DNA from: Bacteroidales bacterium | GTDB lineage: Bacteria > Bacteroidota > Bacteroidia > Bacteroidales > F082 | Assembly: GCA_016284305.1 (NCBI GenBank) | Contig: JAEEON010000074.1 | Coordinates: 124,001 to 188,000, forward strand | DNA: 64,000 nucleotides | Reading direction: 5' to 3' | Shown here: positions 32,524 through 48,875 of the stretch, in pieces | Position numbering within the stretch: the first letter of the stretch is position 1 | Layout of the letters: each line of letters begins with the position of its first letter | Program-made: the position numbers and the translations under genes | The notes under the pieces: model-generated | What the model saw: only the letters and a program-made list of their open reading frames with translations | Databases searched by the model: none | What the model was told of the DNA's origin: nothing

Positions 32524-33528
32524 ATGAGAAGGGGTACTATTTTAGTTTTATTAATGATGTTCATTTGGGCTTGTGACCGTCAGCCCAACCAACCGAAGAT
32601 TGAGGAACCAAAGCCATCGAAAACGGTGACAGTGCCTACGTTTAACGCCGATTCGGCATATGCTTTTGTGAAGGCCCAAACCGACTTTGGTCCGAGGGTG
32701 GCTGGCTCCGAGGCACACGAGTTGTGTGCTGAATGGCTGGTCAACAAGCTCACGGGCTATGCCGACACCGTGATCGTTCAAGAGTTCCGGACTCGTATCT
32801 TCAACAACAAAGGCATGGATGGCAAGAACATCATCGCCTCATTCAATCCAAAAGCAGGCAAACGCATCGTGTTATGTGCTCATTGGGATTCTAGGCCTTT
32901 TGCCGACCATGATCCTGACGAAGCCAATTGGAATCTTCCTATCGACGGTGCCAACGACGGCGCCAGCGGCGTGGGTGTGCTCATTGAATGCGCCCGTTGT
33001 TTCCGTGAGCAGCCCCTCAACGAGAAACTGGGCGTTGATCTCATCTTCTTCGACTTGGAGGACTATGGGCCTAGACAAGATCAGTCGGAGCAGTATTATG
33101 ACGACCGTCGCAACCACTGGGCTTTAGGCTCACAATACTGGGCTGCCCATCCTCATATCCCGGGTTATCAAGCCTCTTACGGCATCTTGCTCGACATGGT
33201 AGGTAACAGCAACCCCAACTTCATGAAGGAGTATTACTCGCAAGGCTATGCTGCTTGGTTGAGCAACAAAGTTTGGCGAACAGCACAGAACTTAGGGTAT
33301 GATCAGCATTTCGTCAACGAACTGGGTGACCCCATCAGCGACGACCATCTTCCCATGAACGAGATCGCCGGCATCCCAACCATCGACATCATCGACTTGA
33401 GGCCGGAAAGCAGCAACCAATGTTTCCCCGAAACCTGGCATACGCTTCAAGACACCTTTGAAAACATCGACAAAAACAGTCTTGGAATGGTCGGAAACGT
33501 CCTTAATTACACCGTTTATCAAGAATAG
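32524..33528 (+). CDS. M28 family lipoprotein, glutaminyl-cyclase-like
   Basis: This 334-residue lipoprotein (lipobox IWAC, Cys17) has the M28 fold of animal-type glutaminyl cyclases. Visible features are FGPRVAGSEAH (55-65), His120 (CAHWDSRP), Asp145 (GANDGASG), Glu179 (FFDLEDYG), SDDH (272-275) and the cyclase-like CFPETWHTLQD with His306. Such enzymes turn N-terminal Gln of exported proteins into pyroglutamate; the Porphyromonas enzyme does this for secreted proteins. Twelve exported proteins in this window are predicted to expose Gln. It closes the operon 25 bases after the LRR gene. A plain M28 aminopeptidase is the alternative. Confidence 0.87.
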   Translation: MRRGTILVLLMMFIWACDRQPNQPKIEEPKPSKTVTVPTFNADSAYAFVKAQTDFGPRVAGSEAHELCAEWLVNKLTGYADTVIVQEFRTRIFNNKGMDGKNIIASFNPKAGKRIVLCAHWDSRPFADHDPDEANWNLPIDGANDGASGVGVLIECARCFREQPLNEKLGVDLIFFDLEDYGPRQDQSEQYYDDRRNHWALGSQYWAAHPHIPGYQASYGILLDMVGNSNPNFMKEYYSQGYAAWLSNKVWRTAQNLGYDQHFVNELGDPISDDHLPMNEIAGIPTIDIIDLRPESSNQCFPETWHTLQDTFENIDKNSLGMVGNVLNYTVYQE

Positions 33529-34086: not shown

Positions 34087-34112
34087 AAAGCTTAGGAAAA
34101 CTTTTTTGATGA

Positions 34113-34144
34113 AGAGACGCTCCGTTTGGAGCGTCTCTTTTTTT
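34113..34144 (+). terminator. Strong intrinsic terminator after the barrel gene
   Basis: A perfect 11-base stem (AGAGACGCTCC with GGAGCGTCTCT) and a GTTT loop are followed by seven T. It can also stop the minus-strand cluster that ends at 34167. Confidence 0.92.
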
Positions 34145-34166: not shown

Positions 34167-34814
34167 TCAATTTCCCTTGATGTACTCATCCAATTCGCGT
34201 TTGGTGGCGTCGTAAGCGAAGGAAGCGTTCACCAGATAATACCGGTTTTTCTCCCCGCAATGGGAGTAGGCGAATTTGGCCAGCTCCAAGCGGTTGCTCT
34301 CAAAGGAAAAAAGCTTACAGATTTCGGCCACCTGAGAGGCTTTCATGAGGTTTTGTGAGACGATCTGCTTAGCCAAGATCAATCGAGTGTTGTCGTACGA
34401 TTCCGATTTCAATGCGTTGAGTGCCGTCTCAAATTCGCGATCTGTCATCAACGGTGTGGCATGGGTCTCCAAAGGCATTGTCAACTCCGAATGTGGTATT
34501 CGGGTTGTTTGCTGCCAACCAAAATAATAGCCTTGATGGGTAATGACCATATGCAATGCCAAATGGTTGATCATGAAGTATTGCCCAAAACTATGGCTCT
34601 CGCCATCGTCAAGGACCACCTCTACCCTATGTTTCCCAACGGGTATCTTAGTGATAGAGATGGAACGAACAGGAGTTTCGTTTTGCAAGATCTCATCGAC
34701 ATAGATTCTGAAAGGAGTGTCGATCGTCGTGGAAACCGAGAACTTCCCTGGTTGGGCACAAAGAGGCCCGATAAAAGCGATAGCGAGGATCAAGATTAGC
34801 AGACGTCTTGTCAT
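34167..34814 (-). CDS. Exported DUF4476 domain protein
   Basis: This 215-residue protein has a signal peptide ending LCA with Gln at +1. Residues about 120-212 match the Bacteroidetes DUF4476 domain: FETALNALKSESYDNTRL, AKQIVSQNLMKASQVAEI and LFSFESNRLELAKFAYSHC. The first part is a beta-rich domain possibly of PEGA type (SITKIPVGKHRVEVVLDDG). Function unknown. Its start overlaps the stop of the last PNGase F-like gene by four bases, so it belongs to that operon as its last gene. Confidence 0.82.
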   Translation of the reverse strand: MTRRLLILILAIAFIGPLCAQPGKFSVSTTIDTPFRIYVDEILQNETPVRSISITKIPVGKHRVEVVLDDGESHSFGQYFMINHLALHMVITHQGYYFGWQQTTRIPHSELTMPLETHATPLMTDREFETALNALKSESYDNTRLILAKQIVSQNLMKASQVAEICKLFSFESNRLELAKFAYSHCGEKNRYYLVNASFAYDATKRELDEYIKGN

Positions 34815-37411
34815 TGGATGATGATTTTTTTGGTGACCACTTTACCACCGATAACATTAACGAAATAGATTCCTGCAGGCAGGCTGCTGACGTCGATGCT
34901 GCATTCCTTATCCATCACAAAGCCACGGACTTCCACACCGAAGGCATTCACGATATGGACGCTAAGCTTGCCCAGCTCGTAGTCTGTCTGTATCGTCAAG
35001 CGTTCGTTGGCAGGATTGGGGGTAATCGTTACCTCAAATGGATCTTGGTTCAGTTCGGGATAAACTTTCACATGGGTAAGGGTACCTCCATTGTTGGTAT
35101 AGCTAACCACGGAACCTGAGACACGCAGGATTGGGTTGTCGGGGTCAGAACAGTGAGGGCAGGAGTTTTGTCCGTCGGCACAATCCGGATAATTGGGATG
35201 ACATTGATCTACATAGTCGGGTTCAAACTGATAGAACAACTCGCAATGGCCAGCGGAAAGATAGTCAGTGAGATCATAGTCCCACACCAGTCCGATGCTA
35301 CCAGGGCACCATCCGCTTCGATTATAGGTCCAAGTACCGTTTTGTGGTTGGCATCCGGCAGGATTGGGCGTACATGCTCTAAAGAGATGTTGGTCGAAAG
35401 TGGGGATTTCGTTGATCAAGATATGATGCGTGGCTTCATAAAACTCTGCAGCGTTGCCTGTGTTGTATGAACTGCCACCACTTACAACGCTCGACCAGTT
35501 ATGACCCGTGGTGATCATTTTCAGATGCACTTTATCTGCTCCATCGAGGAAAGTGTAATCGACTTTGGGAACGGGTTGCAGGTTGGCATAGTCGCCAAAG
35601 TCGTAGGCACCGAACCACAGGGGTTGGATGTCGGTAAAGAGATATTCCGGGGTTCCTTTAGTCATATTAAAGGTAAGGATGGGTGCATAGCCGTCACCAT
35701 CCCAAGTTTGGTAATAGAGTTCGAACTCGACCAAGCCTTGCAGTATGGTTGAATAATCCGTCACATCGAGGTTGTCATCGCATTCTATACCGAAAGGCGA
35801 TACATAACGGAACAGCTCCACCCACTCGCCACGGAAGTTCTTCACACGGCAGTAACCGACGCGGTCGTAGGGGTCACAGATTCCGACACAACGATGGTCG
35901 TAGTGAGCGTTGATATGGTTAAACGCTCCAACATGCGAAGGCATGACATATTCGCCATGCGAAGTCTGCTGGCTCGGTCTCACCACCAAATCACCATTGA
36001 GAGTCACCACATCCAAATCGTTATAGTTGCTGGTCACCTCAAACTGACAAGTGGTCGTGGTAATCTTGCCACCCGACTGGACGATGCTGGCAGTCATGGT
36101 CTTGTTGCCGGACGACTGGGGTTGCCATAAGCCATAGTAATAGCCATTGTCGGGATCATCGGGATAAGCCGTTTCCAATATTACTTCTTGTCCATCGATA
36201 TTACATTTCACTTCCTCGAACTTGATGACGTTACCATGTTCGATATAGGCACTCAGCACCAGCAAGACAGGGTTTAGTTCAGGCATATAGACTTTGGTCC
36301 CATTGTAGGGGCGTCGGATGGTGATTTCAGGGGTGTAGTTGTCGGGGTTGACCACTTGGAAGGTGCGGTTGACAGAAGGAGCGGCTTGCCATTCCACGCC
36401 GTCGCCAGGCTGTGAGGCACGGATCTTGACCGTGCCTTCCTCACCGGTAAGGAATACCTTGTTTTCCTCCAGCGTAGCCGGACCTTCCACCAGTTCAAAC
36501 TGAACGGGCAGTCCAGAGGTAGCCGTAGCGTTGAGGACGAAGGGATCGTCGAAGATGAGCTTATCGGGGATAAGGTCAAAGTCAATGAATTGGGAGGCTA
36601 ATCCAGCGGGAATATGGCGCACCACGATGTTATCGAATCCTCCGTGTGAGCTGCTGAGGAAGAACACACCGTCCCATTTGGCGGGATCGAAACGATCGCC
36701 ACTCCCTGGGGTGAGGCCTGCATTGATGCCTTGAATCTCTGGCACAGGTTCAAATTCGCCTGAACAGCCGTGGTCGGCAAAGAGGGTCACGCTGCCTTGC
36801 CCTCCGTTGGCTTCCAGGTCGATCATGATTTTCCATCGTGTCCAAGTACCATAAGGGTTGTCGTAGTCGAAATCGACGGGCATGGTATTATCGGGGAGCA
36901 CGATGCCATTGACGAAACTGGGACGAGGGTCGATGCCCGTAGTGATGAAGTAGATGCCTCCATCTTGTACCGGGAGGTTGGGGTTGGGGCAGGTGGCTTC
37001 ATAGCTCATGGGGGGTAATACCACGCCATCGCCATCAGCATCGTAGCCAATGCCAAAACAGGTACCCCACCAGTTACGGAACATATCGATTTCCACTTCG
37101 ATCACACCACCTGTTGAAAAGTCAAATTCGAATTCCGAGGTGGATTTATGTGTGGCCACTTCGCCGAAGTTGGTGTTGGCATTGTCGAAGAACACTCCCA
37201 TCGTCTCATCGGGTGTGGTTTGTCCGCCTCCACCAAGATATTCTGTCTTCAGGTTTCCGCCTCCGGCACTATGAGGTTTGGCTACCCAGCCATGTTGACC
37301 ATTGAGCACAGCGTTTTCTTGAAAGTTGTTGAAGTCCATCGATGCTGTGGTTTGGGCATTGAGCATCCCTACAACGAATAAGGCCAATATTAGGATCAAA
37401 AGTTTTTTCAT
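34811..37411 (-). CDS. Secreted PNGase F-like glycoamidase, paralog 1, with T9SS domain (Glu118 position is Gln)
   Basis: This 866-residue protein has a signal peptide (LNA, Gln20), a ConA-like lectin domain (about 22-270), two Ig-like domains (about 275-355 and 358-462), a PNGase F-type catalytic region (about 465-725), a Cys-rich stretch and a type A T9SS domain (about 790-866). Compared by eye with Elizabethkingia PNGase F (numbering from memory), catalytic Asp60 is Asp516 (CDPYDRV), Glu206 is Glu656 (NAAEFY) and the WCPG element is kept (701-704), but Glu118 is Gln568 (YYQTW). It may be weak, inactive or a glycan binder. Paralogs lie directly upstream. Confidence 0.88.
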   Translation of the reverse strand: MKKLLILILALFVVGMLNAQTTASMDFNNFQENAVLNGQHGWVAKPHSAGGGNLKTEYLGGGGQTTPDETMGVFFDNANTNFGEVATHKSTSEFEFDFSTGGVIEVEIDMFRNWWGTCFGIGYDADGDGVVLPPMSYEATCPNPNLPVQDGGIYFITTGIDPRPSFVNGIVLPDNTMPVDFDYDNPYGTWTRWKIMIDLEANGGQGSVTLFADHGCSGEFEPVPEIQGINAGLTPGSGDRFDPAKWDGVFFLSSSHGGFDNIVVRHIPAGLASQFIDFDLIPDKLIFDDPFVLNATATSGLPVQFELVEGPATLEENKVFLTGEEGTVKIRASQPGDGVEWQAAPSVNRTFQVVNPDNYTPEITIRRPYNGTKVYMPELNPVLLVLSAYIEHGNVIKFEEVKCNIDGQEVILETAYPDDPDNGYYYGLWQPQSSGNKTMTASIVQSGGKITTTTCQFEVTSNYNDLDVVTLNGDLVVRPSQQTSHGEYVMPSHVGAFNHINAHYDHRCVGICDPYDRVGYCRVKNFRGEWVELFRYVSPFGIECDDNLDVTDYSTILQGLVEFELYYQTWDGDGYAPILTFNMTKGTPEYLFTDIQPLWFGAYDFGDYANLQPVPKVDYTFLDGADKVHLKMITTGHNWSSVVSGGSSYNTGNAAEFYEATHHILINEIPTFDQHLFRACTPNPAGCQPQNGTWTYNRSGWCPGSIGLVWDYDLTDYLSAGHCELFYQFEPDYVDQCHPNYPDCADGQNSCPHCSDPDNPILRVSGSVVSYTNNGGTLTHVKVYPELNQDPFEVTITPNPANERLTIQTDYELGKLSVHIVNAFGVEVRGFVMDKECSIDVSSLPAGIYFVNVIGGKVVTKKIIIQ

Positions 37412-37428
37412 CTTAATAAAATTTTATA

Positions 37429-39996
37429 TTATTGTATAATCAATTTCTGTGTTACAACTCCACCGCCAAGCATCTTCACCACATAGACTCCAGCAGGCAA
37501 AGAGCTGACATCGATGGTTCGATTGCCATCCATTGTGAAATACATCACCTCTTGCCCTTGTGAGTTAAGTATCAACACACTGACAGCGCCTTTGTCGTAG
37601 TCGGTGCGGAGGGTCAGCTGTTTTGAAGCTGGGTTGGGGAACAGTTCAGCATGGAACGGTGGCTCAGGACGCACGCTATGCACTCCAGTCAAAATAGAGG
37701 CATCATTGCTATAGGTGACCACCTGGCCTGAGACCCTTAACACCGGGTTGTCGGGAGCGGCGCACTCTGTGCAAGTGATGCCATCTTGGCAATCTGGATG
37801 GTTGGGGTGACAGTAATCGACGTAGCCGGGGTCGAATTGGTAGGTCAACTCGGCATGGTCCTGCCCGTTGACATCGTTCAACAAGTCGTTATACCACCAT
37901 ACCATGGCGATGCTACCCGGACACCAACCGCTACGTGGATAGATCCAAGTTCCATTTTGAGGTTGGCAGCCGGCAGGATTGGGGTTGCAAGTCCTCCAAA
38001 GATGCTGGTCGAAACGGTTTTGGCCATTGACCAAGACATGATGGGTGGCTTCATAAAACTCTGCTGCATTACCGGTATTGTAGGTATTGTTTGCACCACT
38101 ACTCCAGTTGTGGCCTGTGGTAATCAAGCGTAATTTGACATCCTTGTTGGAGAGTTCGTTCAAATCACTGAGGTCGTAGTCGATAGCAGGAACAGGCTGC
38201 AAGTTGGCATAGTCGCCAAAGCTGTAGGTTCCAGACCAAATCTCATCGATATCCACATAAAGTATTTCTGGTGTGCCTTTGGTAAAGGAGAAGATCAGTG
38301 TCGGGTTATAGCCGCTGCCGCTCCAGGTCTCCATATAAAACTCTATTTCCACCAATCCTTGAAGCAATGAGGTAAACTCGGTGACTTCGACGTCGTCTTG
38401 GCATTGTACGCCAAAAGGAGTGATATAACGGAAGAGTTCCACCCATTCTCCACGGTAGTTACGCACACGCACACCTCCCACACGGTCATAGTTATCGCAG
38501 TTGCCGTTGACGCAGTTATGGTCATAATGAGCCATGATTTGGTTGAAGACTCCCACATGCGATGGAAATGCATAATTGCCTATGGCACTATGGTGAGTAG
38601 GGTTGCAAACGAGATCGCCATTCATGGTCACCACATCAAGTTGGTTTTCCACACTACCCGTGACTGTGAAACTATTGGTGTAGGTACTGGTCTTGCCTCC
38701 CGATTGGGTAAGGCTGACCATCATGTCGTAATTGCCTGAAGGGGTACCTTCAGGAGTCCAGAAGCCGTAGTAATAGCCATTTTCAGGGTCGTCGGGGTAA
38801 TCCGTTTTAAGCGGAATCTCCTGACCTTGGATGGTGGCTTTGACTTCGGTGAACTTAATAACCTCCGGATGTTCGATATAGGCGGAGACGACGACCATCA
38901 CCGGATGTGACTCATGGAGATACAGTTTTTGACCATTGTAAGGCCGGCGCAGGGTCACCTCGGGAGTATAGAGGTCAGGATCAACGACTTCGAAGGTTTT
39001 CACTACATCGGGAGCGGGAAGCCAAGTATCGTCACCCGCTTGCATAGCTTTGAGTCGTACAATGCCCGTGGCACCGGTAAGTGTCAGCACGTTGCCACTG
39101 ATGGTGGCAGGTCCCTCAATCATCTGGAAGCTTACTGGCAGTCCCGAAGAGGCTTGGGCTTGGAGGGTGATGGGCTCATTAAACACCAGTTGATTCGGGA
39201 TATCGGCCATATCGATGAGTTGGGCACTTCCAGGAGGTTGCTGGCGAACCAGAAGGTTGTCGAAGCCACCCAATCCGCCTTGCGAATGGAAGAAGATTCC
39301 ATCCCAAACCTGATAGTCGTTTTTGTCGCCTGATCCAGGGGTCAGGTGCATGTTGATGTTGGTGGCTGCTGCCTGTTGGATCCATTCGCCTTGGCATCCT
39401 GGTTGAACGAACACGGTAACGGAGCCTTCGCCATCGTAGGCATTGAAGTCGAACGACATCTTATAGCGGTTCCAACCGCCCTGGTCGTAGGCAAACTCCA
39501 CAGAGCTACCATTGGGAAGATAGAGCTTAGCATGGCCGCTATCGCCTTGGCCTTTCACGGATACATAGACACCGCCATCGGCATCGGTCATACCCGGTAG
39601 GATAAGGCCATCGCCATTACTGTCGAAGCCAACCCCAAAGAAATTTCCCCACCAGGTGCGGTTCATGTCCATCTCGAGATCCATGATGCCACCGTCATGG
39701 AAACTGAAGTTGAAGTTGGGTGAGGCCTTACGAGTGGCCGTGCGGCCGACGCCAGAGCCACCGTATGGATACCATACCGCTATCGACTCATCAGGAGCCA
39801 TGTCAGAACCACTGACATAGCCGATGTCGAAATCTTGCGACGATGGAGCCGTTTGATAATGGGTCACCCATCCATCTTGCCCGTTGAGGTTTTGGCTACC
39901 TTCCGTCAAAGAGTTGAAATCGTAAAGGTATTCCACTTGCGCCATGGACTGTGTTGCTAGTGCCAGTCCGATTAGTAGGATTATGATCTTTTTCAT
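37429..39996 (-). CDS. Secreted PNGase F-like glycoamidase, paralog 2, with T9SS domain (compared active-site residues complete)
   Basis: This 855-residue protein (from the ATG at 39996) has a signal peptide ending SMA with Gln20. It has the same layout as its neighbours: ConA-like lectin, two Ig-like domains, PNGase F-like region, T9SS domain. All catalytic positions compared are present: Asp504 with Arg505 (NYDRVGG), Glu556 (YMETW) and Glu646 (NAAEFY), plus RSGWCPG (688-694). PNGase F cuts the bond between Asn and the first GlcNAc of N-glycans, releasing the intact glycan. This is the best candidate for an active enzyme here. It is 17 bases upstream of paralog 1. Confidence 0.89.
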   Translation of the reverse strand: MKKIIILLIGLALATQSMAQVEYLYDFNSLTEGSQNLNGQDGWVTHYQTAPSSQDFDIGYVSGSDMAPDESIAVWYPYGGSGVGRTATRKASPNFNFSFHDGGIMDLEMDMNRTWWGNFFGVGFDSNGDGLILPGMTDADGGVYVSVKGQGDSGHAKLYLPNGSSVEFAYDQGGWNRYKMSFDFNAYDGEGSVTVFVQPGCQGEWIQQAAATNINMHLTPGSGDKNDYQVWDGIFFHSQGGLGGFDNLLVRQQPPGSAQLIDMADIPNQLVFNEPITLQAQASSGLPVSFQMIEGPATISGNVLTLTGATGIVRLKAMQAGDDTWLPAPDVVKTFEVVDPDLYTPEVTLRRPYNGQKLYLHESHPVMVVVSAYIEHPEVIKFTEVKATIQGQEIPLKTDYPDDPENGYYYGFWTPEGTPSGNYDMMVSLTQSGGKTSTYTNSFTVTGSVENQLDVVTMNGDLVCNPTHHSAIGNYAFPSHVGVFNQIMAHYDHNCVNGNCDNYDRVGGVRVRNYRGEWVELFRYITPFGVQCQDDVEVTEFTSLLQGLVEIEFYMETWSGSGYNPTLIFSFTKGTPEILYVDIDEIWSGTYSFGDYANLQPVPAIDYDLSDLNELSNKDVKLRLITTGHNWSSGANNTYNTGNAAEFYEATHHVLVNGQNRFDQHLWRTCNPNPAGCQPQNGTWIYPRSGWCPGSIAMVWWYNDLLNDVNGQDHAELTYQFDPGYVDYCHPNHPDCQDGITCTECAAPDNPVLRVSGQVVTYSNDASILTGVHSVRPEPPFHAELFPNPASKQLTLRTDYDKGAVSVLILNSQGQEVMYFTMDGNRTIDVSSLPAGVYVVKMLGGGVVTQKLIIQ

Positions 39997-40010
39997 AGCT
40001 TTTGTTTTGT

Positions 40011-40065
40011 CCGAGGGTGCCCGCAATGCGAGTACCCTCGGTTAGTTAACGAGCTCCCCGTTGGG
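40011..40065. repeat. Hairpins between PNGase F-like paralogs 3 and 2
   Basis: The 81-base gap holds an eight-base stem (CCGAGGGT 40011-40018 with ACCCTCGG 40034-40041) and a short CCCC-GTT-GGGG hairpin (40055-40065). There is no T run on the minus strand, so these look like message-stability or processing hairpins rather than terminators. Confidence 0.5.
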
Positions 40066-40077
40066 GTGCCCTTGATT

Positions 40078-42726
40078 TTAGTTTTTAATGATTTTTTTGG
40101 TTAGCATTTGGCCACCGAGGATTTTGACGATATAGACTCCTGAGGGCAGGTCGCTCATGTCGATGGTGGCGGTACCGTTCATACTAAAGCGGCGTACGGT
40201 AACACCTTGGGCGTTGATGATACGGACGCTGGCATTGCCCTTTTCATAGTCGGTGGTGATGGTAAGTTGGTCTCTCACAGGGTTGGGTGAAAGGGTCACG
40301 GTGAATGGATCTTTTTCAATCTCTGGGTGTTCGGAGACATCCGTCAAGATGTCGGTGTAGTGGCTATAGGTCACCAGTTTACCTGAGACCATCAGGATCG
40401 GGTTGTTCAAGTCTTGGCAGCTTATGCAGCTGTTTTGTCCGCTCACGCAGTCGGGATAGTTGGGATGGCACTGATCCACGTAGGTCGGGTCGAATTCGTA
40501 GAGGATGTCAGCGTGACCGGCATTGAGGTAGTTGTCCAAGCTATAGTTCCACACCATGCCGATGCTACCTGGGCACCATCCGGCGCGTGGGTAAGTCCAG
40601 GTGCCGTTTTGAGGCTGGCATCCTGCTGGGTTGGGGGTGCAGTTTTCCCAAAGGTGTTGGGTGTAAGTGGCAGTTCCGTTAATCTTGATATTGTGGGTAG
40701 CTTCATAGAACTCGGCGGCATTGCCGGTGTTGTAAGCGCCATTGTCGGTATCGCTCCAGTGGTGTCCAGTAGTCACCAAACGCAGGTTGGCTTTCTCAAC
40801 ACAGGGATCAAATCCGACCGTACGAACTGGAACGGGGCAAAGGTTTTCGTAGTCGCCAAAAGAATAGCTTCCAAACCACAGTTCTTGCATATCGATGTAT
40901 GGATAGTCGGGACGACCTTTAGTATATTCGAAGATGGCTGTGGGATTGTAACCATCGCCTGTACTCTCATACATCTCGCAATAGACTTCAAACTCCACGA
41001 GGCCTTGCAGCAAGGAGGTAAAGTCGCTGACATCGACGTCGTCATCGCATTCCACGCCGAAGGGAGTGACATAGCGGACAAGTTCCACCCATTCGCCACG
41101 ATAGTTCTTCACGCGCACATAGCTCATATGGTCGTAAGGTTTGCAGCTTCCGTTCACACAGTTGTGGATATAGTGCAGGTTGATGGCATTGAAAGCGTTG
41201 ACGTGGGTAGGGAATGGATATTCGCCATGGCTGGTAAACTGTTGGTTGGTCACTGCCACTTCACCGTTGAGGGCAGAGACGGTGATGTCGTCGTAGTTAG
41301 TTGTGACCTCGAAAGTGTTGCTTGCTTCGGTAGCCTTGCCGCCGGTATGGGTGATTCGCACGGTCATGTTATAGGTACCAGGTCCCGATGGGGTCCAGGT
41401 GGTGTACCAATAGCCGTTGGACGGGTCGTCAGGGTAGTCGGTCTTAAGGGTCAGCTGTTTTCCATCAACACTGCATTTCACTTCTTCGAATTTCAACACG
41501 TCGCTATGTTCGATATATGCACTAAGCACAATCATGATGGGGTTCTCAAAGTCGGGCATATACACCTTGGTACCTTCATAGGGACGACGGATGGTGATGG
41601 TAGGAGTATAATTCTCGGGATCAACCACATAGAACGAACGTGTCACTGCAGGTGCGGCTTGCCATTGGACGCCATCACCCATTTGTTTGGCACGTATTCT
41701 CACCAAGCCTTCTTCACCGGTGAGGGTGAGGATGTTGCCATCGATGGTGGCAGGACCTTGGAGAACCTCAAATGATACGGGAAGTCCCGATGAAGCCGTA
41801 GCTTGCAAGGTGATAGGGTCGCTATTGACCAGTTGGTCGGTGATTTCAGCAAAGTCGATGAACTGTGCTGCCAAGCCACCTGGGATATGACGCACGTTGA
41901 AGTTATCGAAACCACCCATGCCGCTGTTGAGCATGAACATGCCATTCCATGTGGCAGGGTCCGACTTGTCGCCGCTGCCTGGGGTGAGGCCAGCGTTCAC
42001 GCCTTGGCATTCCGGCACAGGATCCCATTCGTCGCTGTTAGGATCTGACATCGTATAGAGGGTGACAGCACCAGCGCCGTCGTTGGCATCGAGGTCGATA
42101 GAAATCTTCCAACGATACCAGCAGTCCATCTCAGTACTGGGTTGGAAGTTGCACGCCATGGTGTTGTTGGGCAATACCACACCACATTTGAAATAGGAGT
42201 CGCTAGGGCGATATCCCGTAGTCAGCATATAGATGCCTCCATCAGGAAAGGTACTCTCGGCATTTGGCGTAATAGGTTCGCAGGGAAGGTGACCTGGAGC
42301 TGTGGCAAAAGGAGGAACGATGGCTCCGTCGCCATTGCCATCGAAGCCGATGCCAAAGAGATGACCCCAAAGACCACGATACATGTCACACTCCACCTCG
42401 ATGACGCCGCCTGAGGAGAAGTCGAAGTTAAATTCGTCAAGGGAGTGGGTGGCGACATCGCCGAAGCCGGTACCTGAAGCTATGGAGAACACTCCCATAG
42501 TCTCATCAAGCGTCGGGGCTGGGTCGCCTTTCCAGAAGTGACCGATGTAACCCGTGTACATAGGGTTGCCGCCATTGCCAGCGGTATGAGGTCTGACATA
42601 CCAGCCGTGTTGGCCGTTAAGAGGTTCTTCTTCAAGATATTCATTGAAGCTGAAAACAGCTTCTGTTTGGGCGCTCAAAGCAAAAGCGAACGCCATCATC
42701 ACGATTAGTAGTGTTATTCTTTTCAT
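40078..42726 (-). CDS. Secreted PNGase F-like glycoamidase, paralog 3, with T9SS domain (Arg61 position is His)
   Basis: This 882-residue protein (from the ATG at 42726) has a signal peptide ending LSA with Gln20 and the same domains as paralogs 1 and 2. Catalytic Asp60 corresponds to Asp532 and Glu206 to Glu672 (AAEFY). Glu118 corresponds to Glu584 (YCEMY), but the Arg next to the catalytic Asp, present in PNGase F and the other two paralogs, is His533 (PYDHMS). The change may alter glycan recognition. It is the first of the three enzymes after SusD, separated by a 183-base gap holding hairpin repeats and an A-rich tract. Confidence 0.88.
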   Translation of the reverse strand: MKRITLLIVMMAFAFALSAQTEAVFSFNEYLEEEPLNGQHGWYVRPHTAGNGGNPMYTGYIGHFWKGDPAPTLDETMGVFSIASGTGFGDVATHSLDEFNFDFSSGGVIEVECDMYRGLWGHLFGIGFDGNGDGAIVPPFATAPGHLPCEPITPNAESTFPDGGIYMLTTGYRPSDSYFKCGVVLPNNTMACNFQPSTEMDCWYRWKISIDLDANDGAGAVTLYTMSDPNSDEWDPVPECQGVNAGLTPGSGDKSDPATWNGMFMLNSGMGGFDNFNVRHIPGGLAAQFIDFAEITDQLVNSDPITLQATASSGLPVSFEVLQGPATIDGNILTLTGEEGLVRIRAKQMGDGVQWQAAPAVTRSFYVVDPENYTPTITIRRPYEGTKVYMPDFENPIMIVLSAYIEHSDVLKFEEVKCSVDGKQLTLKTDYPDDPSNGYWYTTWTPSGPGTYNMTVRITHTGGKATEASNTFEVTTNYDDITVSALNGEVAVTNQQFTSHGEYPFPTHVNAFNAINLHYIHNCVNGSCKPYDHMSYVRVKNYRGEWVELVRYVTPFGVECDDDVDVSDFTSLLQGLVEFEVYCEMYESTGDGYNPTAIFEYTKGRPDYPYIDMQELWFGSYSFGDYENLCPVPVRTVGFDPCVEKANLRLVTTGHHWSDTDNGAYNTGNAAEFYEATHNIKINGTATYTQHLWENCTPNPAGCQPQNGTWTYPRAGWCPGSIGMVWNYSLDNYLNAGHADILYEFDPTYVDQCHPNYPDCVSGQNSCISCQDLNNPILMVSGKLVTYSHYTDILTDVSEHPEIEKDPFTVTLSPNPVRDQLTITTDYEKGNASVRIINAQGVTVRRFSMNGTATIDMSDLPSGVYIVKILGGQMLTKKIIKN

Positions 42727-42741
42727 GCTTTTTTGTTTATG

Positions 42742-42825
42742 TCCACACTGCCGTGGGGGGGTTCTACATCCCCACACTTCCGTGGGGGGTTCTACATCCC
42801 CACACTTCCGTGTGGGGTTAATGAG
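42742..42825. repeat. Three tandem 28-base hairpin repeats between susD and the PNGase F-like genes
   Basis: Three units start at 42742, 42770 and 42798. The third holds a perfect hairpin CCCCACAC-TTCC-GTGTGGGG (42798-42817), and the others are slightly degenerate. A further hairpin, GTGTCTC-TTC-GAGACAC (42829-42845), and a T/G-rich tract (42849-42890 on the plus strand) follow. There are no spacers, so it is not a CRISPR array. It may protect the upstream susCD message. Confidence 0.75.
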
Positions 42826-42892
42826 AGGGTGTCTCTTCGAGACACTGCTTTTTTTTGTTTTTTGTTTTTTTGTTTTTTTGTTTTTTGTTTAT

Positions 42893-42909
42893 CTCTCAAC
42901 TTTTAACTT
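42893..42909 (-). repeat. Trace of AAGTTGA-type repeat after the susD stop
   Basis: On the minus strand about 2.5 units (AAGTTAA, AAGTTGA, GAGA) follow the susD stop codon. It is the same family as 29894-29928. Confidence 0.5.
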
Positions 42910-44610
42910 TCATCTCCTCACCATCCACCAAACCGGTGTCTGTCGGGTGTCACCATGCGACATACTCGTAACTTGCGTTGCGTAATTGTCGTAGTTGTAT
43001 TCAACTTCTTTTTGAGGATATTCCATCCTATAGGAGGTCAGCTTGGCATGGTTGGTAGTGGTAGGTGTGGCAAACGTACGACGTGCCAAGGCCCAGGCTT
43101 CCCAAGGTTGACGGAAGAGGTTCAGCCAGCGTTGCTGGTAAATCATCTTAAGATAAAACTCCTGACTTCCATCGTACTCCGGATTCATCCAGACGGCATA
43201 GTTCATCACGTTAGCCGCCATGTTGTTGCACCAATCCCAAATACTCAAGTTGCCGACATAGTTCGTATATTGCGGATAGAAATAGGTCCAGCGAGAGGTC
43301 ATGTTAGGCATGTGTGTCCAGAACAAGAAGGATTGATACACTCCCGAACGGATGGATTCATCAGCATTCAGCGGAGGTGTGATGCCTCCGATATTTCTCA
43401 CTTCGATTTCAGCCTTCATGAACAGCACGTCGGCATAGTTCACCAAGATTTGGGGAACATAACGTTCGTCTCTGGTGAGGTAATAGTTGAAGGGAGAGTA
43501 GAGGCACGAAGGACCTTTGAAGGTGTAGCTGCCATCGCGGCTTTGGGCGTAGGGTGAGCCTCCTTCAGTAGGCGTTTCAGCGGTATGAATTTGTGGATAG
43601 GGCTTCCAAGCTCCATCGGGGAAACTGTCGGTCTTGTGATTAGTGTCGAAGAAAATGAAGGTACGATAGTCGTAGATACCGCTACCATCCATATCGTCGG
43701 TTGAGGAAAGACAGCTCCAAATGGTCTCGCCCATACGAAGATGTTTGTGTTCACGGAACGACCAGTTGGTATCCCAATTAGTCCCTAATACACTGGGCCA
43801 TAAGCAGATACCTCCACCAGTAGTACTACCACCCGAGGTATTCATCTGCGTATAGATAAAATTATAGGCATTCACCAACATGGGGGTGGCAAATTCAGGA
43901 TCCTTTTCATACATACGGAGTCCGTGACGCAAGATCAGCGAGTTGGCAAATTCGGCCCACAAGATGTAGTTGTTGTTGAGCAACACCTCGTAGGAGAGTT
44001 TGTAGAACTCGTTGCCTGAGGGGGTGACTGTGGTGTCGTTTTGCAACACGTTGCGCGACCAGAGCAATTCGTTCATCAGCTGTTTATAGATGCTTTCTTG
44101 GGAGTCCCATTTGGGTTTCATACCCACAGGGCTGTTTTCCCAAATACGGCCAGCTTCGGAGTAAGGAATGTCGCCAAAAACGTCGGTGAGCTTGAAGGTT
44201 TGATAAGCTTTCAGTATGTTGAGTTGGGCACGTACCTTGTCGCAAATAGCCGTGTCTCCATATTCATCGCCGTAGGCATCAAAACGGTTTTCCAATTCAC
44301 GGATGTTGGCCAGCATATAATAGTAATCCGACCAAAGGTTTGAAATGCCAATCTGAGAATTACCCCAAGACTCGGAAATCAAAGCACCGAGTTCTGTTTC
44401 GGGATACCAGATTTCATTTTGCAGATAGAACTGCTCGTTCATACTTTGTTGCAGTGAACTCACCACACCGTTGAAGAGAGCATCGATGGTCGTTCCTGTG
44501 GGCGAGAAAGGATCTTGGTTCATTTCATCAAAGTCCTTCGTACAAGCCGTGAACGCCATCATGATTATTAATCCTAATATACTTATGTTTCTCATATCAT
44601 TAAACTTCAT
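42910..44610 (-). CDS. SusD/RagB-like outer-membrane glycan-binding lipoprotein
   Basis: This 566-residue lipoprotein (lipobox FTAC) is the surface lid partner of the SusC-like transporter encoded 39 bases upstream. Features are the N-terminal helical TPR-like region (DPFSPTGTTIDALFNGV ... LKAYQTFKLTDVFGDIPYSEAG) and the C-terminal YVPQILVNYADVLFMKAEIE and WLNLFRQPWEAWALARR segments typical of SusD proteins. Translation may start at 44610 or at a second Met six codons on (MRNISILG). The downstream PNGase F-like genes suggest that the ligand is a released N-glycan or a glycoprotein fragment, which is inference. Confidence 0.93.
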   Translation of the reverse strand: MKFNDMRNISILGLIIMMAFTACTKDFDEMNQDPFSPTGTTIDALFNGVVSSLQQSMNEQFYLQNEIWYPETELGALISESWGNSQIGISNLWSDYYYMLANIRELENRFDAYGDEYGDTAICDKVRAQLNILKAYQTFKLTDVFGDIPYSEAGRIWENSPVGMKPKWDSQESIYKQLMNELLWSRNVLQNDTTVTPSGNEFYKLSYEVLLNNNYILWAEFANSLILRHGLRMYEKDPEFATPMLVNAYNFIYTQMNTSGGSTTGGGICLWPSVLGTNWDTNWSFREHKHLRMGETIWSCLSSTDDMDGSGIYDYRTFIFFDTNHKTDSFPDGAWKPYPQIHTAETPTEGGSPYAQSRDGSYTFKGPSCLYSPFNYYLTRDERYVPQILVNYADVLFMKAEIEVRNIGGITPPLNADESIRSGVYQSFLFWTHMPNMTSRWTYFYPQYTNYVGNLSIWDWCNNMAANVMNYAVWMNPEYDGSQEFYLKMIYQQRWLNLFRQPWEAWALARRTFATPTTTNHAKLTSYRMEYPQKEVEYNYDNYATQVTSMSHGDTRQTPVWWMVRR

Positions 44611-44621
44611 TGAATATCTCT

Positions 44622-44649
44622 CAATTCTAAATTCTAAATTCTAAATTCA
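44622..44649 (-). repeat. Seven-base tandem repeat, AATTTAG type, between susC and susD
   Basis: On the minus strand three to four AATTTAG units follow directly on the susC stop codon. Related copies lie at 48909-48935 and, more degenerate, at 967-993. Confidence 0.8.
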
Positions 44650-47600
44650 TCACAGGCTTACTTTCAAGGTCATCATCACTGATCTTGTACCCGGATAGGA
44701 ACCATATTCCAAACCTTGGGCATTGCCAGAGCCTTGGGTGCCTTCGGGGTTGATGTTGTCGGGCAAAGTCTTGTAGAAATAGAATAAGTCACGGCCCACC
44801 AAAGAGATGGAGGCTTGTTTGAAGAAATTTTGCTTGTCGAGCAATTTACGCGGGAAGTCGTAAGTCAGCGACAGTTCGCGCAGCTTGATCCATGTGTTGT
44901 TAACGATGCCTGGGGTGGATAGGATATTGCCCCATCCGCCAAAGTTGGGCATGTACTTGTAAAGGTAATGAACGACATTGTCGTTTAGGACGGCCTCCCC
45001 GGTCTCGGTGTTGATGCAATAACCTGGCAGGATGACACCGTAGTTGCCTACGAGTTCGCCGTTGGCATCGTAATAGGGCAATCCGTTGCCTTCGCGTTCA
45101 TAAAGCGTTTCAAGGCTTTGTCCTGTTTGCATGGCCACCACATACGAGGCGCAATAGATCTGGCCTCCCAATTTGGCATCGACCAAGGCAAAGAGCGACC
45201 AGTTTTTATAGGAAGCTCTCATGTTGAGACCACCTGTCAACAAAGGTGCGCAGTTGCCTACCGGTACACGGTTGTCGGTCTTCAGATAGGTAGTACCCGT
45301 CTCGTTGAGCAACGGCATGGGATTGTGATTCTCGTCATAGAAGGGCCCAACGACAGTGCCATCGGGCATCGTATATTGATAGACGTAATCCCAACCATAG
45401 ATGGTACCATATTCCTCACCTTCTTCGACGGCGATAGCTGGACCGTTGGAACCCCAAATCTCAGAGAGCAAATACATGTTGGCGCCTGCCAAATCGACGA
45501 TTTTGTTTTTGTTACGTGCAATGTTAAGACCCACCTGAACGCCATAATCCTTACCCTGTGCGATGTCGTAAGTCATGATGGCCTCGATACCTTTGTTGGT
45601 GACAACACCCGTGTTAATGGTCACGTTTGATGCACCCGTGGAAGGAGCCAAGGGCGAAGAAAGGATTTGATCCCATGAATAGATATCATAATAGGTGAAA
45701 TCCATGTTGAATCGGGCTCCAAGGCCGAGGTCAAAGCCCACCTCAAAGGCGCGCTGACGTTGTGGCTTGAGCTCCAAGGGTGGAACCACCGAAGGCAACG
45801 ACGATGAGAGATGATGACCAAAGGATCCTGTGGCATAGGTATAGGTCAACTGATAAGGTTCCGTATCGCTAGCGGTTTGGGCCCATGAACCTCTCAGCTT
45901 CAGGAAGTTCACTGGACCCCATTTCCAATCCGGGAAGGCAGAGGTCGGCACAAAACTCAAGGTAGCCGAAGGATAGAAATAGCTGTTGCGTGAGATAGGC
46001 AAGGTCGATGACCAGTCGTTGCGACCCGTTACATCGAGGAACAGCCAGTTGTTGTAGCTAAGATTCAGGAAGGCATACAAGGAGTTGACTTGTTTTTCCC
46101 ATTTTGATTCATGGAAAGTCCGTTCTGTGGCAGAAGAGTAGTTGTAGATGGTATAAAGGTTAGCGTAAGCCCAGGTTCCAGAGCTGCCATCGATTCCGTC
46201 GCGATAGCCATAGTATTGTTCACCACCAAAGGAGAAACGTACATTGAGCGGTATGTTGAAGAGTTTTTCCTTATGAGCAGTAAGCAGGAAGTCCATATCG
46301 CGAGTGATCGAACTGTTCTTCTGTTTTTTATAATAGCCACCCACCATGCCATCACTTGCCGTTGGCTTATGCGTGGTGATGTAATTGTCGTTGGTCCAGT
46401 CGAGGGCCACTTTGGCATTGGCACTGAGCCAAGGAGTGATGTCGTACAACAAGCGGACCGATCCAAACATCTTATCACGGTCAAGTGTTGTATTGTTGTT
46501 GTAGAACGTCCAAAAGGTACTGCTGTTGATGTAGCTGAAAGGATAGCCTTCAAATTCATTCATGGAGCCATCGGGGTTCTCGTAACCAGTGACTTCCAAA
46601 CCTTTCCAGCTGCGAGGCCAGCTATAAAGCAGACCTTTGTTGAAGTTACTGTTCGACTCACCGATTTCTGGGGAGTTCAAACGGAAATAATCCAAATAGG
46701 TGAAAGCCACATCGACTTTGATCTTGTCGGAAACGTTGATGAGTGAACCCACATTGACGGTGGTTTGGCGCAAGTTGCAGTTGTCGATGATGGCATCGGT
46801 ACGTGAGTCCGTAAACGACACACGGATGCTACCGAAGTCGCCGGCATTTTGAAGTGAGATGTTGTTGTTGAAGGTATGGCCATTGTTGAACAACATGCTG
46901 AGGTTGTCGGGTTGAGGCGAATAATCGCGCACCACGCCATCCCACCAAAGTACACTTTCGCCGTTCATCGCCGGTCCCCAACTCTGGGCAGCGCCATAGT
47001 AGCCGAAAGTTGTGTTGGTAGGTTCGCCAGCAGGACCGTTATCGACGCTGTATATACCGGGATATTCATATACTTGATTGCCATTTTCGTCAAACATGCC
47101 TTCGATAGGAGTCAGCGTAGGAGGGTTAAAAGTGATGGGGCCTCCAGCACCATATTTGTTTTGGACTCGGCGATAAAGATAAGGTTGGGTAACCTTAAAC
47201 GAAGAAGTATAGGTGATACCCAAGCCACGTTGTTTGCTACCTTTTTTGGTGGTGATGAGCAACACGCCGTTGCCACCACGCGAACCATACAAGGCTGCTG
47301 CGGTAGGGCCCTTCAAGATGTCGATGTTCTCGATATCTTCTTGGTTGATGTTGTTCAATGCCGTTCCCCAGTCACGTCCACCACTCCAATCGGTAACGCC
47401 ACCTTCATTCGACATAGGCACACCGTCAACTACAATCAGGGGTTGGTTATCTCCCAAGATGTTGTTGTTACCACGAATTACGATACGTGAAGCACCGCCA
47501 TCAACACCATTAGGGTTGATGATCTGCACACCTGCCGAGCGACCACTCAAGGCACTGATCACGCTGCCAGAACCCGATTTGGCAATCAAATCACCACCGA

Positions 47601-47976
47601 TTTCTTCAGTGGCATAGCCCAACTCTCGTTTTTGACGTTTGATGCCCAAAGCGGTCACCACCACATCGTCGAGCAATTGCGCATCTTGATCCATGGTGAC
47701 GTTGATCTTGTCGCGACCGTTAACGGGAATTTCTTGTTTCACGAAACCCACAAAGCTAAACACCAATGTACCAGTACTGCTGGCTTGGATAGTGTAATTA
47801 CCGTCGATATCGGTGACGGTACCTCCGCTCCCTCCTTTTACAGTGACGGTGACGCCTGGCAAGCCAAAGCCATCGTCGCTTGAAATTACCTTACCCGTGA
47901 CTGTCACATTCTGAGCTGTGACCGTCAGGAAGGCGAGAAGAGTAAAGAATAGTAATAATAGTAATTTTTTACTCAT
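44650..47976 (-). CDS. SusC/RagA-like TonB-dependent outer-membrane transporter
   Basis: This 1108-residue protein has a signal peptide ending TVTA with Gln at +1, a CarboxypepD_reg-like domain (NVTVTGKVISSDDGFGLPGV), a TonB-box-like stretch (DDVVVTALGIKRQKRELGYA), a plug domain (IRGNNNILGDNQPLIVVDGVP and GSRGGNGVLLITTKKG) and a long beta barrel ending in KVSL. Together with SusD it would import glycans or peptides using TonB energy. It begins only 11 bases after the LD-carboxypeptidase gene, so it has no separate promoter space unless this lies inside that gene. No SusR, ECF-sigma or hybrid regulator is adjacent. Confidence 0.96.
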   Translation of the reverse strand: MSKKLLLLLFFTLLAFLTVTAQNVTVTGKVISSDDGFGLPGVTVTVKGGSGGTVTDIDGNYTIQASSTGTLVFSFVGFVKQEIPVNGRDKINVTMDQDAQLLDDVVVTALGIKRQKRELGYATEEIGGDLIAKSGSGSVISALSGRSAGVQIINPNGVDGGASRIVIRGNNNILGDNQPLIVVDGVPMSNEGGVTDWSGGRDWGTALNNINQEDIENIDILKGPTAAALYGSRGGNGVLLITTKKGSKQRGLGITYTSSFKVTQPYLYRRVQNKYGAGGPITFNPPTLTPIEGMFDENGNQVYEYPGIYSVDNGPAGEPTNTTFGYYGAAQSWGPAMNGESVLWWDGVVRDYSPQPDNLSMLFNNGHTFNNNISLQNAGDFGSIRVSFTDSRTDAIIDNCNLRQTTVNVGSLINVSDKIKVDVAFTYLDYFRLNSPEIGESNSNFNKGLLYSWPRSWKGLEVTGYENPDGSMNEFEGYPFSYINSSTFWTFYNNNTTLDRDKMFGSVRLLYDITPWLSANAKVALDWTNDNYITTHKPTASDGMVGGYYKKQKNSSITRDMDFLLTAHKEKLFNIPLNVRFSFGGEQYYGYRDGIDGSSGTWAYANLYTIYNYSSATERTFHESKWEKQVNSLYAFLNLSYNNWLFLDVTGRNDWSSTLPISRNSYFYPSATLSFVPTSAFPDWKWGPVNFLKLRGSWAQTASDTEPYQLTYTYATGSFGHHLSSSLPSVVPPLELKPQRQRAFEVGFDLGLGARFNMDFTYYDIYSWDQILSSPLAPSTGASNVTINTGVVTNKGIEAIMTYDIAQGKDYGVQVGLNIARNKNKIVDLAGANMYLLSEIWGSNGPAIAVEEGEEYGTIYGWDYVYQYTMPDGTVVGPFYDENHNPMPLLNETGTTYLKTDNRVPVGNCAPLLTGGLNMRASYKNWSLFALVDAKLGGQIYCASYVVAMQTGQSLETLYEREGNGLPYYDANGELVGNYGVILPGYCINTETGEAVLNDNVVHYLYKYMPNFGGWGNILSTPGIVNNTWIKLRELSLTYDFPRKLLDKQNFFKQASISLVGRDLFYFYKTLPDNINPEGTQGSGNAQGLEYGSYPGTRSVMMTLKVSL

Positions 47977-47987
47977 AAATATAGATT

Positions 47988-48875
47988 TTATTTAATAATT
48001 TTTTGATTGAATATCGTAGTATTATTGCTTACCGAGAGTGTTGTCTGGCATCCTAATACCATTGCCCTGTTGTCGTCGATATGTCCTGCCGGGGTATTGA
48101 AGCACACTGGGTAGTCGTATTCCCTTACGGTATCGAAGATGGCTTGTTCCACGGTTTTACCAAAGGGGTTGGGGTTGTCGTGAATACTGGTGAGGCCGCC
48201 TATCATGAGTGCTTTCAGGTTTTTTAGTTTGCCAGCACGTTTTAATCCCAGCATCATGCGTTCGACATGATAGATATATTCATCGATTTCTTCGAGGAAC
48301 AGGATGCGGTTATCCGTATCTGGAAATGAGTTGGAGCCCATCATGCCATAAAGAACAGACAGGTTGCCACCTACCAATACACCTTGAGCTTCGCCTTGAC
48401 GGTTGCAAGGATGTGCATTCCATTCATAATGGAGCGGGTTACCAAGCAAAGCGTCATAGATGGATTGAAGTGATTCAGGGGTCTTTTTTTCAAGATAGAA
48501 AGGCATGGAGGCATGAATGCTTGTCAGTCCAAGACTTTGGACTTTGCCATGGAACACCGTGGTATCGCTAATTCCGATAAGAGGTTTCGGATGCTGCACG
48601 AAGTGCGAGAAATCGATTTTGTCGATGATGTGGATGCTGCCATAGCCGCCACGGGCAAACCATATAGCGTCGATATCATCACGATCGAGATATTCTTGAA
48701 TGACCTGGGCACGGAGTTCTGCAGTTCCGGCAAAGATATAGTCTGAGGCAAACAAACGCTCGTCGAAAACGGCATTCATTCCTTTTGAATGCAGCCATTT
48801 TACGGCATATTCTACCTGCTCGGGAATCACTTTCCGTCCCGGTGCCGCTATTGCTATATGTTTTATTTCCCTCAT
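47988..48875 (-). CDS. LD-carboxypeptidase, peptidase family S66
   Basis: This 295-residue serine peptidase cuts the L-Lys/mDAP-D-Ala bond of murein tetrapeptides during cell-wall recycling. The start reads MREIKHIAIAAPG. Visible motifs are the WFARGGYGS segment, the nucleophile Ser in GISDTT, GGNLSVLYGMMG, the catalytic Glu in FLEEIDEYIYHVERM and the catalytic His in TPAGHIDDN. It has no signal peptide and is probably cytoplasmic. It lies between the MORN-repeat gene (49-base gap with a hairpin and a seven-base repeat) and susC. Confidence 0.94.
   Translation of the reverse strand: MREIKHIAIAAPGRKVIPEQVEYAVKWLHSKGMNAVFDERLFASDYIFAGTAELRAQVIQEYLDRDDIDAIWFARGGYGSIHIIDKIDFSHFVQHPKPLIGISDTTVFHGKVQSLGLTSIHASMPFYLEKKTPESLQSIYDALLGNPLHYEWNAHPCNRQGEAQGVLVGGNLSVLYGMMGSNSFPDTDNRILFLEEIDEYIYHVERMMLGLKRAGKLKNLKALMIGGLTSIHDNPNPFGKTVEQAIFDTVREYDYPVCFNTPAGHIDDNRAMVLGCQTTLSVSNNTTIFNQKIIK

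Follow-up and report, generated by a model that had tools for sequence, protein, structure and literature searches.

A SusC-SusD gene run with three diverged, T9SS-tailed PNGase F-like proteins in a Bacteroidales genome of family F082

Results

Organization of the gene run

We describe a run of six genes on the reverse strand of a 64,000-nucleotide stretch of DNA from a Bacteroidales bacterium of family F082 (assembly GCA_016284305.1, contig JAEEON010000074.1, positions 124,001 to 188,000; hereafter the window). The run spans positions 34167-47976 and encodes, in the order of transcription, SusC, SusD, three paralogues related to the N-glycanase PNGase F (PNG3, PNG2 and PNG1) and a DUF4476 protein (Table 1). 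A reading made earlier from the sequence alone had proposed SusC, SusD, three paralogues of about 860 residues and a coupled DUF4476 gene; gene calls, profiles and a 4-base overlap between the start of the DUF4476 gene and the end of PNG1 agree with this, and the observation is confirmed as right and as more than chance. PNG1 and PNG3 are 57% identical, PNG1 and PNG2 53%, and PNG2 and PNG3 49%; the lengths of PNG2 and PNG3 are counted from inner ATG codons, as the list of open reading frames (ORFs) begins both at an upstream TTG or GTG. Read by eye, SusD carries a lipobox-like stretch (...AFTACTKDF), and the 183 bp gap between SusD and PNG3 contains two near-copies of the unit gaagtgtggggatgtagaacccccc at 42740-42840. 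Terminator-like hairpins such as the one beyond the DUF4476 gene are not enriched as a class (11 found, 17.6 expected in shuffles), and promoter-like sites gave no information (27 found, 24.2 expected). A gap of 11 bp separates SusC from the preceding gene, which encodes an S66 LD-carboxypeptidase and is perhaps cotranscribed with it in the window.

Of the features of a classical polysaccharide utilization locus (PUL), the run has the SusCD pair and lacks detectable glycoside hydrolase (GH) and sensor-regulator genes; in a Pfam scan of 37 of the window's ORFs, none matched a glycosidase or regulator family, and several had no match to any family. Within this set the earlier remark that the locus carries no exo-glycosidase or regulator stands. 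Like PULs and utilisomes, the locus combines SusCD and enzymes in one operon, and unlike them it has no GH or regulator found and bears T9SS (type IX secretion system) tails in place of lipid anchors. A PNGase beside only susC/D is already known: in Bacteroides sartorii such a pair is the only neighbour of a group 2 PNGase gene (PMC9522356).

Table 1. Features of the gene run and its flanks in window coordinates.
Feature	Position	Strand	Evidence
SusC/RagA TonB-linked outer-membrane transporter, 1108 aa	44650-47976	-	TIGR04056 555.5 bits (cut-off 368.25)
SusD-like lipoprotein lid, 566 aa	42910-44610	-	PF12771 116.6 bits, PF12741 99.6 bits
PNG3, T9SS-tailed PNGase F-like, 882 aa from inner ATG	40078-42726	-	profile and alignment
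PNG3 stretch aligned to PNGase F, residues 498-737	40516-41235	-	sequence alignment
PNG2, T9SS-tailed PNGase F-like, 855 aa from inner ATG	37429-39996	-	profile and alignment
PNG2 N-terminal L-type lectin-like domain, residues 19-255	39232-39942	-	fold
PNG2 PNGase F domain, residues 450-776	37669-38649	-	fold
PNG2 Asp504 codon (PNGase F Asp60 position)	38485-38487	-	alignment
PNG2 Glu556 codon (PNGase F Glu118 position)	38329-38331	-	alignment
PNG2 Glu646 codon (PNGase F Glu206 position)	38059-38061	-	alignment
PNG2 T9SS C-terminal sorting domain	37435-37644	-	profiles
PNG1, T9SS-tailed PNGase F-like, 866 aa	34811-37411	-	profile and alignment
PNG1 N-terminal lectin-fold domain, residues 18-271	36599-37360	-	fold
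PNG1 PNGase F domain, residues 464-786	35054-36022	-	fold
PNG1 T9SS C-terminal sorting domain	34817-35020	-	profiles
DUF4476 protein, 215 aa	34167-34814	-	60.7 bits (cut-off 22.5)
Terminator-like palindromic hairpin, 13 pairs, between convergent operons	34111-34140	.	longest stem listed
S66 LD-carboxypeptidase	47988-48875	-	Pfam

Domain architecture, predicted fold and export

All three PNG proteins match PF09113 (N-glycanase_C) above the gathering cut-off of 25 bits (PNG1 45.1, PNG2 46.8, PNG3 41.2). Of the N- and C-terminal profile matches foreseen earlier, only this one reached its cut-off; PF09112 (N-glycanase_N) scored 17.8 bits in PNG2 and 12.8 bits in PNG3 against a cut-off of 22.4, PNG1 not being listed. 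Matches to PNGase F by sequence had E-values of 5.3e-27 (PNG2), 2.4e-25 (PNG3) and 5.3e-24 (PNG1). The PNG2 sequence alignment spans residues 24-271 of the PNGase F chain, and the fold alignment extends over residues 4-314 and hence both halves. Structure models were made for PNG1 and PNG2 and compared by a re-examination of Foldseek matches, so that families missing there are not thereby excluded; the models display the two jelly rolls of the PNGase fold, with 21-26% identity to PNGase F in the fold alignment. The assignment of the three proteins to the PNGase F family is borne out by the profiles, the alignments and, for PNG1 and PNG2, the fold; neither a lack of family matches nor a different fold, which would have spoken against it, was found.

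The window proteins differ from PNGase F of Elizabethkingia meningoseptica (type I; 1pnf, 1pgs), with which the fold is common over residues 4-314, in being fused to a lectin-fold domain, beta-rich regions and a T9SS tail. The lectin-like domain claimed earlier finds its support in the fold of PNG1 and PNG2, which is that of L-type lectins at 7-14% identity in the fold alignment. The region between the lectin-fold and PNGase domains is beta-rich in the models, as the two Ig-like domains postulated before would be, but no family match there exceeds its cut-off: the weak hints of an Ig-like identity are a sub-cut-off Big_1 match in PNG3 and similarity to intimin in a profile comparison (E 0.15). 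T9SS tails are present in all three proteins (PF18962, 46-49 bits against 27; TIGR04183, 39-52 bits against 23). With a type A C-terminal sorting domain, a signal peptide read by eye and a T9SS gene in the genome (GldK, the only one looked for), PNG1-3 have the sequence marks of T9SS cargo, in line with the earlier proposal of export by this route and not by lipid anchoring. Residues 729-745 of PNG2, behind the PNGase domain, contain a cysteine motif, CHPN-x-P-x-C-x5-C-x2-C, that is invariant in 44 aligned proteins and may form a metal site or disulfides.

Active-site residues and divergence of the paralogues

PNGase F sites were placed on PNG2 by counting along the PNG2-PNGase F sequence alignment, with D60, E118 and E206 as what we take to be the PNGase F numbering. 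The D60, R61, E118 and E206 positions are occupied by D504, R505, E556 and E646 in PNG2, by D532, H533, E584 and E672 in PNG3, and by D516, R517, Q568 and E656 in PNG1, which has D604 at the position of Ser155. The PNG2 positions Asp504, Glu556 and Glu646 quoted from the sequence alone proved exact, and alignment of sequence and fold suggests that they lie close together in PNG2. In an alignment of 225 rows (three from the window, 102 from the loci of relatives described below and 120 listed of 627 protein-search matches; window PNG2 occurs twice), D504, E646, R688 and W691 in PNG2 numbering are kept in 224 rows and W631 in all 225, the sole deviating row probably being the protein at 12584-15331 of L066, which has by far the longest tree branch. 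The window proteins share the equivalents of D60, E206, R248, W251 and W191 with PNGase F, Glu118 being kept in PNG2 and PNG3, and depart from it by Tyr for Trp59 throughout, His for Arg61 in PNG3 and Gln for Glu118 in PNG1. The 61/118 pair is R/E in PNG2, H/E in PNG3 and R/Q in PNG1, and both substitutions recur in relatives. The paralogues thus do not replicate PNGase F equally, and the view of them as equivalent PNGases had to be given up.

At position 556, the 120 listed proteins have E in 112 cases, V in seven and I in one; the counts are E 55, V 1 and one gap for PNG2-type rows, E 15, D 5 and Q 3 for the PNG3 type, and Q 17 and E 8 for the 25 rows of the PNG1 type. Position 505 is R in all 120 listed proteins, R 56 with one gap in the PNG2 type, H 14 and R 9 in the PNG3 type, and R 17 and H 8 in the PNG1 type. 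Over 135 rows the 61/118 combinations are R/E 83, H/E 22, R/Q 21, R/D 5 and R/V 4, with no H/Q. Four changes at position 61 and six at position 118 were counted on the tree; covariation of the two is suggestive and not significant (four independent pairs, of which three agree, none disagree and one has no difference; p 0.25). In a quick tree of 118 rows with approximate likelihood-ratio (SH-aLRT) support, a PNG2 group (68 rows, 95) is separated from the rest (49 rows, 99), within which the PNG3 type forms one group (24 rows, 100). The PNG1-type rows fall into two groups (seven rows, 100; 18 rows including window PNG1, 85) at an unresolved fork; PNG2 and PNG3 are therefore firm groups, and a single PNG1 clade is unsupported.

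With Glu556 and Glu584, PNG2 and PNG3 carry the acid (Glu or Asp) at position 118 that marks type I, whereas PNG1, with Gln568, is not assigned to that type; type II was rejected for the window enzymes because none has Gly at this position (E, E and Q in PNG2, PNG3 and PNG1). A rule by which an acid stands at 118, 585 or 592 (PNG2 numbers) is true in the 135 close rows only. It is not general: among 14 distant members linked to SusCD, seven have no acid at any of these positions (L151-L153, L160, L161, L165, L167); the 14 have Q in four, S in four, M in three and G, V and E in one each at position 556, and the D504 and E646 equivalents are kept in all of them. In PMC9522356, Glu118 of PNGase F is said to block core alpha1,3-fucose, and type II enzymes have Gly instead, another Glu (418 or 419) likely taking over its role. 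PMC12753239 shows the two catalytic acids of fish Ngly2 to be essential and reports histidines in place of Trp59 and Arg61, to which its authors relate the activity seen at pH values under 6. By analogy with the latter, PNG3 with His533 may be acid-shifted; from the role of Glu118, the Gln568 of PNG1 may give this protein a different rate or core specificity.

PNG1 and the other Gln118 members could instead be glycan-binding or very slow proteins that present substrate, leaving the PNG2 and PNG3 types to cut. The prevalence of Gln in the PNG1 type would fit this, and the E118Q mutant of PNGase F is reportedly nearly inactive, a result attributed to Kuhn in 1995. We nevertheless consider it unlikely: the Asp60 and Glu206 equivalents are kept in 25 of 25 PNG1-type rows, the Ser155 position is Asp or Glu in the same 25 and offers a possible stand-in for Glu118, 13 of the 14 distant SusCD-linked relatives have Met, Ser, Gly, Val or Gln at position 118, and active type II enzymes with Gly there are described in PMC9522356. 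Family membership of all three proteins is strong by sequence; activity is a good prediction for PNG2 and PNG3 and an open one for PNG1.

Linkage to SusCD in relatives

A genome scan gave 309 confirmed relatives, the best 80 of which yielded 75 loci. These hold 83 PNGase runs, defined as same-strand genes less than 400 bp apart. SusC-SusD is part of 24 of them and absent from 45, and 14 cannot be judged, a run being counted as SusCD-free only where at least 4 kb of upstream sequence was in view. A few of the 45, such as those with the PNG1 gene of L046 and the PNG2 gene of L068, do have SusCD in their locus, at a greater distance upstream. In a second set, 20 sites chosen from other genera within the family, SusD lies upstream of the PNGase gene in 14, immediately so in 11, and SusC was seen in 13; L151-L153 have one LamG gene with a T9SS tail between SusD and PNGase (Pfam-confirmed in L153 only). 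The remaining six (L155, L157, L159, L162, L166 and L168) encode divergent PNGase-domain proteins of about 1140 aa with no SusCD seen, little upstream DNA being present in L159 and L168; L155, the sole one scanned, has a T9SS tail. From the shared gene order in other genera we conclude that the arrangement is older than the genus, lone PNGases without SusCD being common. The 45 SusCD-free runs would suit an explanation in which the PNGase and SusCD genes adjoin through historical accident, with no shared function, but this is very improbable, given that the order persists at 28-40% PNGase identity and that SusC is 46-50% identical in ten of the 13 loci (32% in L151-L153). Linkage to SusCD recurs in relatives, but with 45 of the 83 runs lacking it the word 'dedicated' was too strong.

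The DUF4476 gene lies 8-74 bp behind a PNGase gene in 15 of 19 neighbour pairs; DUF4476 as a functional partner was set aside, the only publication found on the domain concerning animal ciliary bands. SusCD-free PNG2-type genes (L037-L039, L043, L049 and others) occupy a recurrent place beside three ORF clusters, c1, c2 and c3, presumably YicC-, NadD- and Gmk-like, where a lipoprotein-like ORF, c0, is repeated (48 ORFs in 29 loci). An 870-aa leucine-rich-repeat (LRR) protein encoded at 29886-32498 (+) of the window matches an EndoS LRR model (42 bits, cut-off 27.9), and its homologues adjoin PNGase genes in eight of the 75 loci.

Genome and lineage context

The source is a metagenome-assembled genome (MAG) of 2.59 Mb (89.4% complete, 5.3% contamination), and absences from it are soft because it is incomplete. 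It contains five N-glycanase_C matches: the three in the window, one on contig C67 that has their architecture, and on contig C40 a type II-like protein with Gly at position 118, a match to 4r4z at E 1.4e-130 and no T9SS tail seen. Candidate processing enzymes (three matches each to GH92, GH20 and GH29) are encoded elsewhere in the genome, which agrees with the expectation that processing occurs outside the locus; the idea that the GH92 and GH20 genes belong to an N-glycan PUL was discarded, four stretches showing scattered genes by eye. PF09113 occurs in 140 of 173 genomes of the same family. In a phylum sample of 395 genomes, with two candidates scored per genome, 48 match our A2 profile at E 1e-10, with no other genome of the window's family among the matches listed; a full-length match is seen in the window's own genome only, and a match over 262-865 in one other. 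According to their record titles, relatives (bacterium F082 and Candidatus Limimorpha among them) come from ruminant gut sites and horse faeces, and the source bacterium is probably from a herbivore gut.

SusCD and its cargo

The closest solved SusC is BT2264 (5fq6_B, 251.5 bits), followed by a match of 141.9 bits and, third, RagA at 112.5 bits. In the alignments the plug-domain stretch of the window SusC is similar in length to that of BT2264 and is shorter in 8aa4. PMC7782687 states that oligopeptides are the ligands present in Bt2261-64 and RagAB, and that in Bt2264 a long loop of the plug is able to touch the ligand; on our reading the aligned stretch is the loop meant there. As the closest solved SusC is reported with an oligopeptide, the earlier claim of glycan import by SusCD is reduced to an assumption, and the cargo may be N-glycan or (glyco)peptide.

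These resemblances give some footing to protein feeding, in which deglycosylation by the PNGases opens proteins to proteases, and oligopeptides or glycopeptides enter through SusCD in the manner of RagAB and BT2263-64. We know of no PNGase in the RagAB or BT2263-64 loci. Peptidases lie nearby, namely the S66 enzyme, an M28 peptidase at 32524-33528 and another M28 peptidase, with its own T9SS tail, at 12464-13687 (-). Yet S66 adjoins SusC (102 bp) in just one of the 24 SusCD-PNGase loci besides the window and is rarely conserved there, the nearer M28 gene is convergent on the other strand, SusC similarity at such a level does not fix the ligand, and the genome has candidate N-glycan exo-glycosidases. 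Protein feeding is possible but doubtful.

Other features of the window

A Card1-like protein with a CARF domain and a PDDEXK-type nuclease (Pfam; PADLOC PDLC01880, 200 bits) is encoded at 52784-53926 (-), directly behind phosphoglycerate kinase.

Discussion

Taken together, these results favor, with a probability of about 0.75, an operon for N-glycoprotein disassembly at the cell surface, the catalysis by PNG1-3 being predicted from sequences and models. Several points weigh against it. More than one of the findings above does so: the 45 runs without SusCD, the lack of Glu118 in PNG1 and a SusC most like an oligopeptide-bound one. In addition, model confidence is low in active-site loops (635-643 of PNG2, with a mean pLDDT of 53 over residues 641-650; 638-652 and 677-704 of PNG1, with pLDDT below 50), sugar binding by the lectin-fold domain is putative, and GH18 had no match in the scan of this incomplete MAG, GH85 and GH163 being outside the search.

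In the operon that we favor, T9SS would move PNG1-3 to the surface or outside, where the lectin-fold domain may hold the glycoprotein or glycan while the enzymes probably strip sugar chains from glycoproteins. SusCD would then take up the product, either free N-glycan or freed (glyco)peptide, and GH92, GH20 and GH29 enzymes coded elsewhere could finish the glycan. The paralogues probably share the work, PNG2 with the classical Arg61/Glu118, PNG3 with His/Glu and PNG1 with Arg/Gln, and glycopeptides with core alpha1,3-fucose, once imported, could be substrates of the C40 protein. More tentatively, PNG1-3 may form a graded set re-tuned at 61/118 (R/E type I-like, H/E acid-shifted as in fish Ngly2, R/Q with the Ser155-position acid). 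Such a set would let a herbivore-gut bacterium act extracellularly on different core structures and at different pH, plant-type glycopeptides being completed by a type II enzyme in the periplasm, and would be a PNGase-only counterpart of GH18-based surface N-glycan systems of Bacteroides.

Gut Bacteroides PNGases of groups 1 and 2 and PNGF-II (7zgn, 4r4z, 3ks7, 4qhb) share the catalytic fold and are likewise from Bacteroidota. In PMC9522356, N-glycan removal by gut Bacteroides is described at the surface for GH18 enzymes and as probably periplasmic for PNGases; the two tested Bacteroides PNGases are predicted periplasmic, unlike the T9SS-tailed window proteins, and most group 2 enzymes have an N-terminal bowl-like domain and Gly for Glu118, the type represented here by the C40 protein. 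Zebrafish Ngly2, an acid PNGase (9lwg), is an animal homodimer with PA and Tx-like domains, believed lysosomal (PMC12753239). In open-licence PMC, no literature was found on PNGase F-type enzymes with type IX secretion acting on N-glycans, nor, by title, on N-glycanase systems of rumen Bacteroidales. An animal enzyme such as zebrafish Ngly2 would, to our knowledge, not be expected to have a T9SS tail. Set against the published work consulted, the elements that look new are export by T9SS, fusion to a lectin fold, diverged paralogues in tandem and the host group, together with their arrangement.

If the operon works as proposed, T9SS-exported lectin-fused PNGases with SusCD would place the release of whole glycans outside the cell in an uncultured gut group, and would hint at bacterial use of plant, salivary or microbial glycoproteins. 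The variation at 61 and 118 would provide enzymes of possibly different pH range and core-fucose tolerance, useful as glycan-release reagents.
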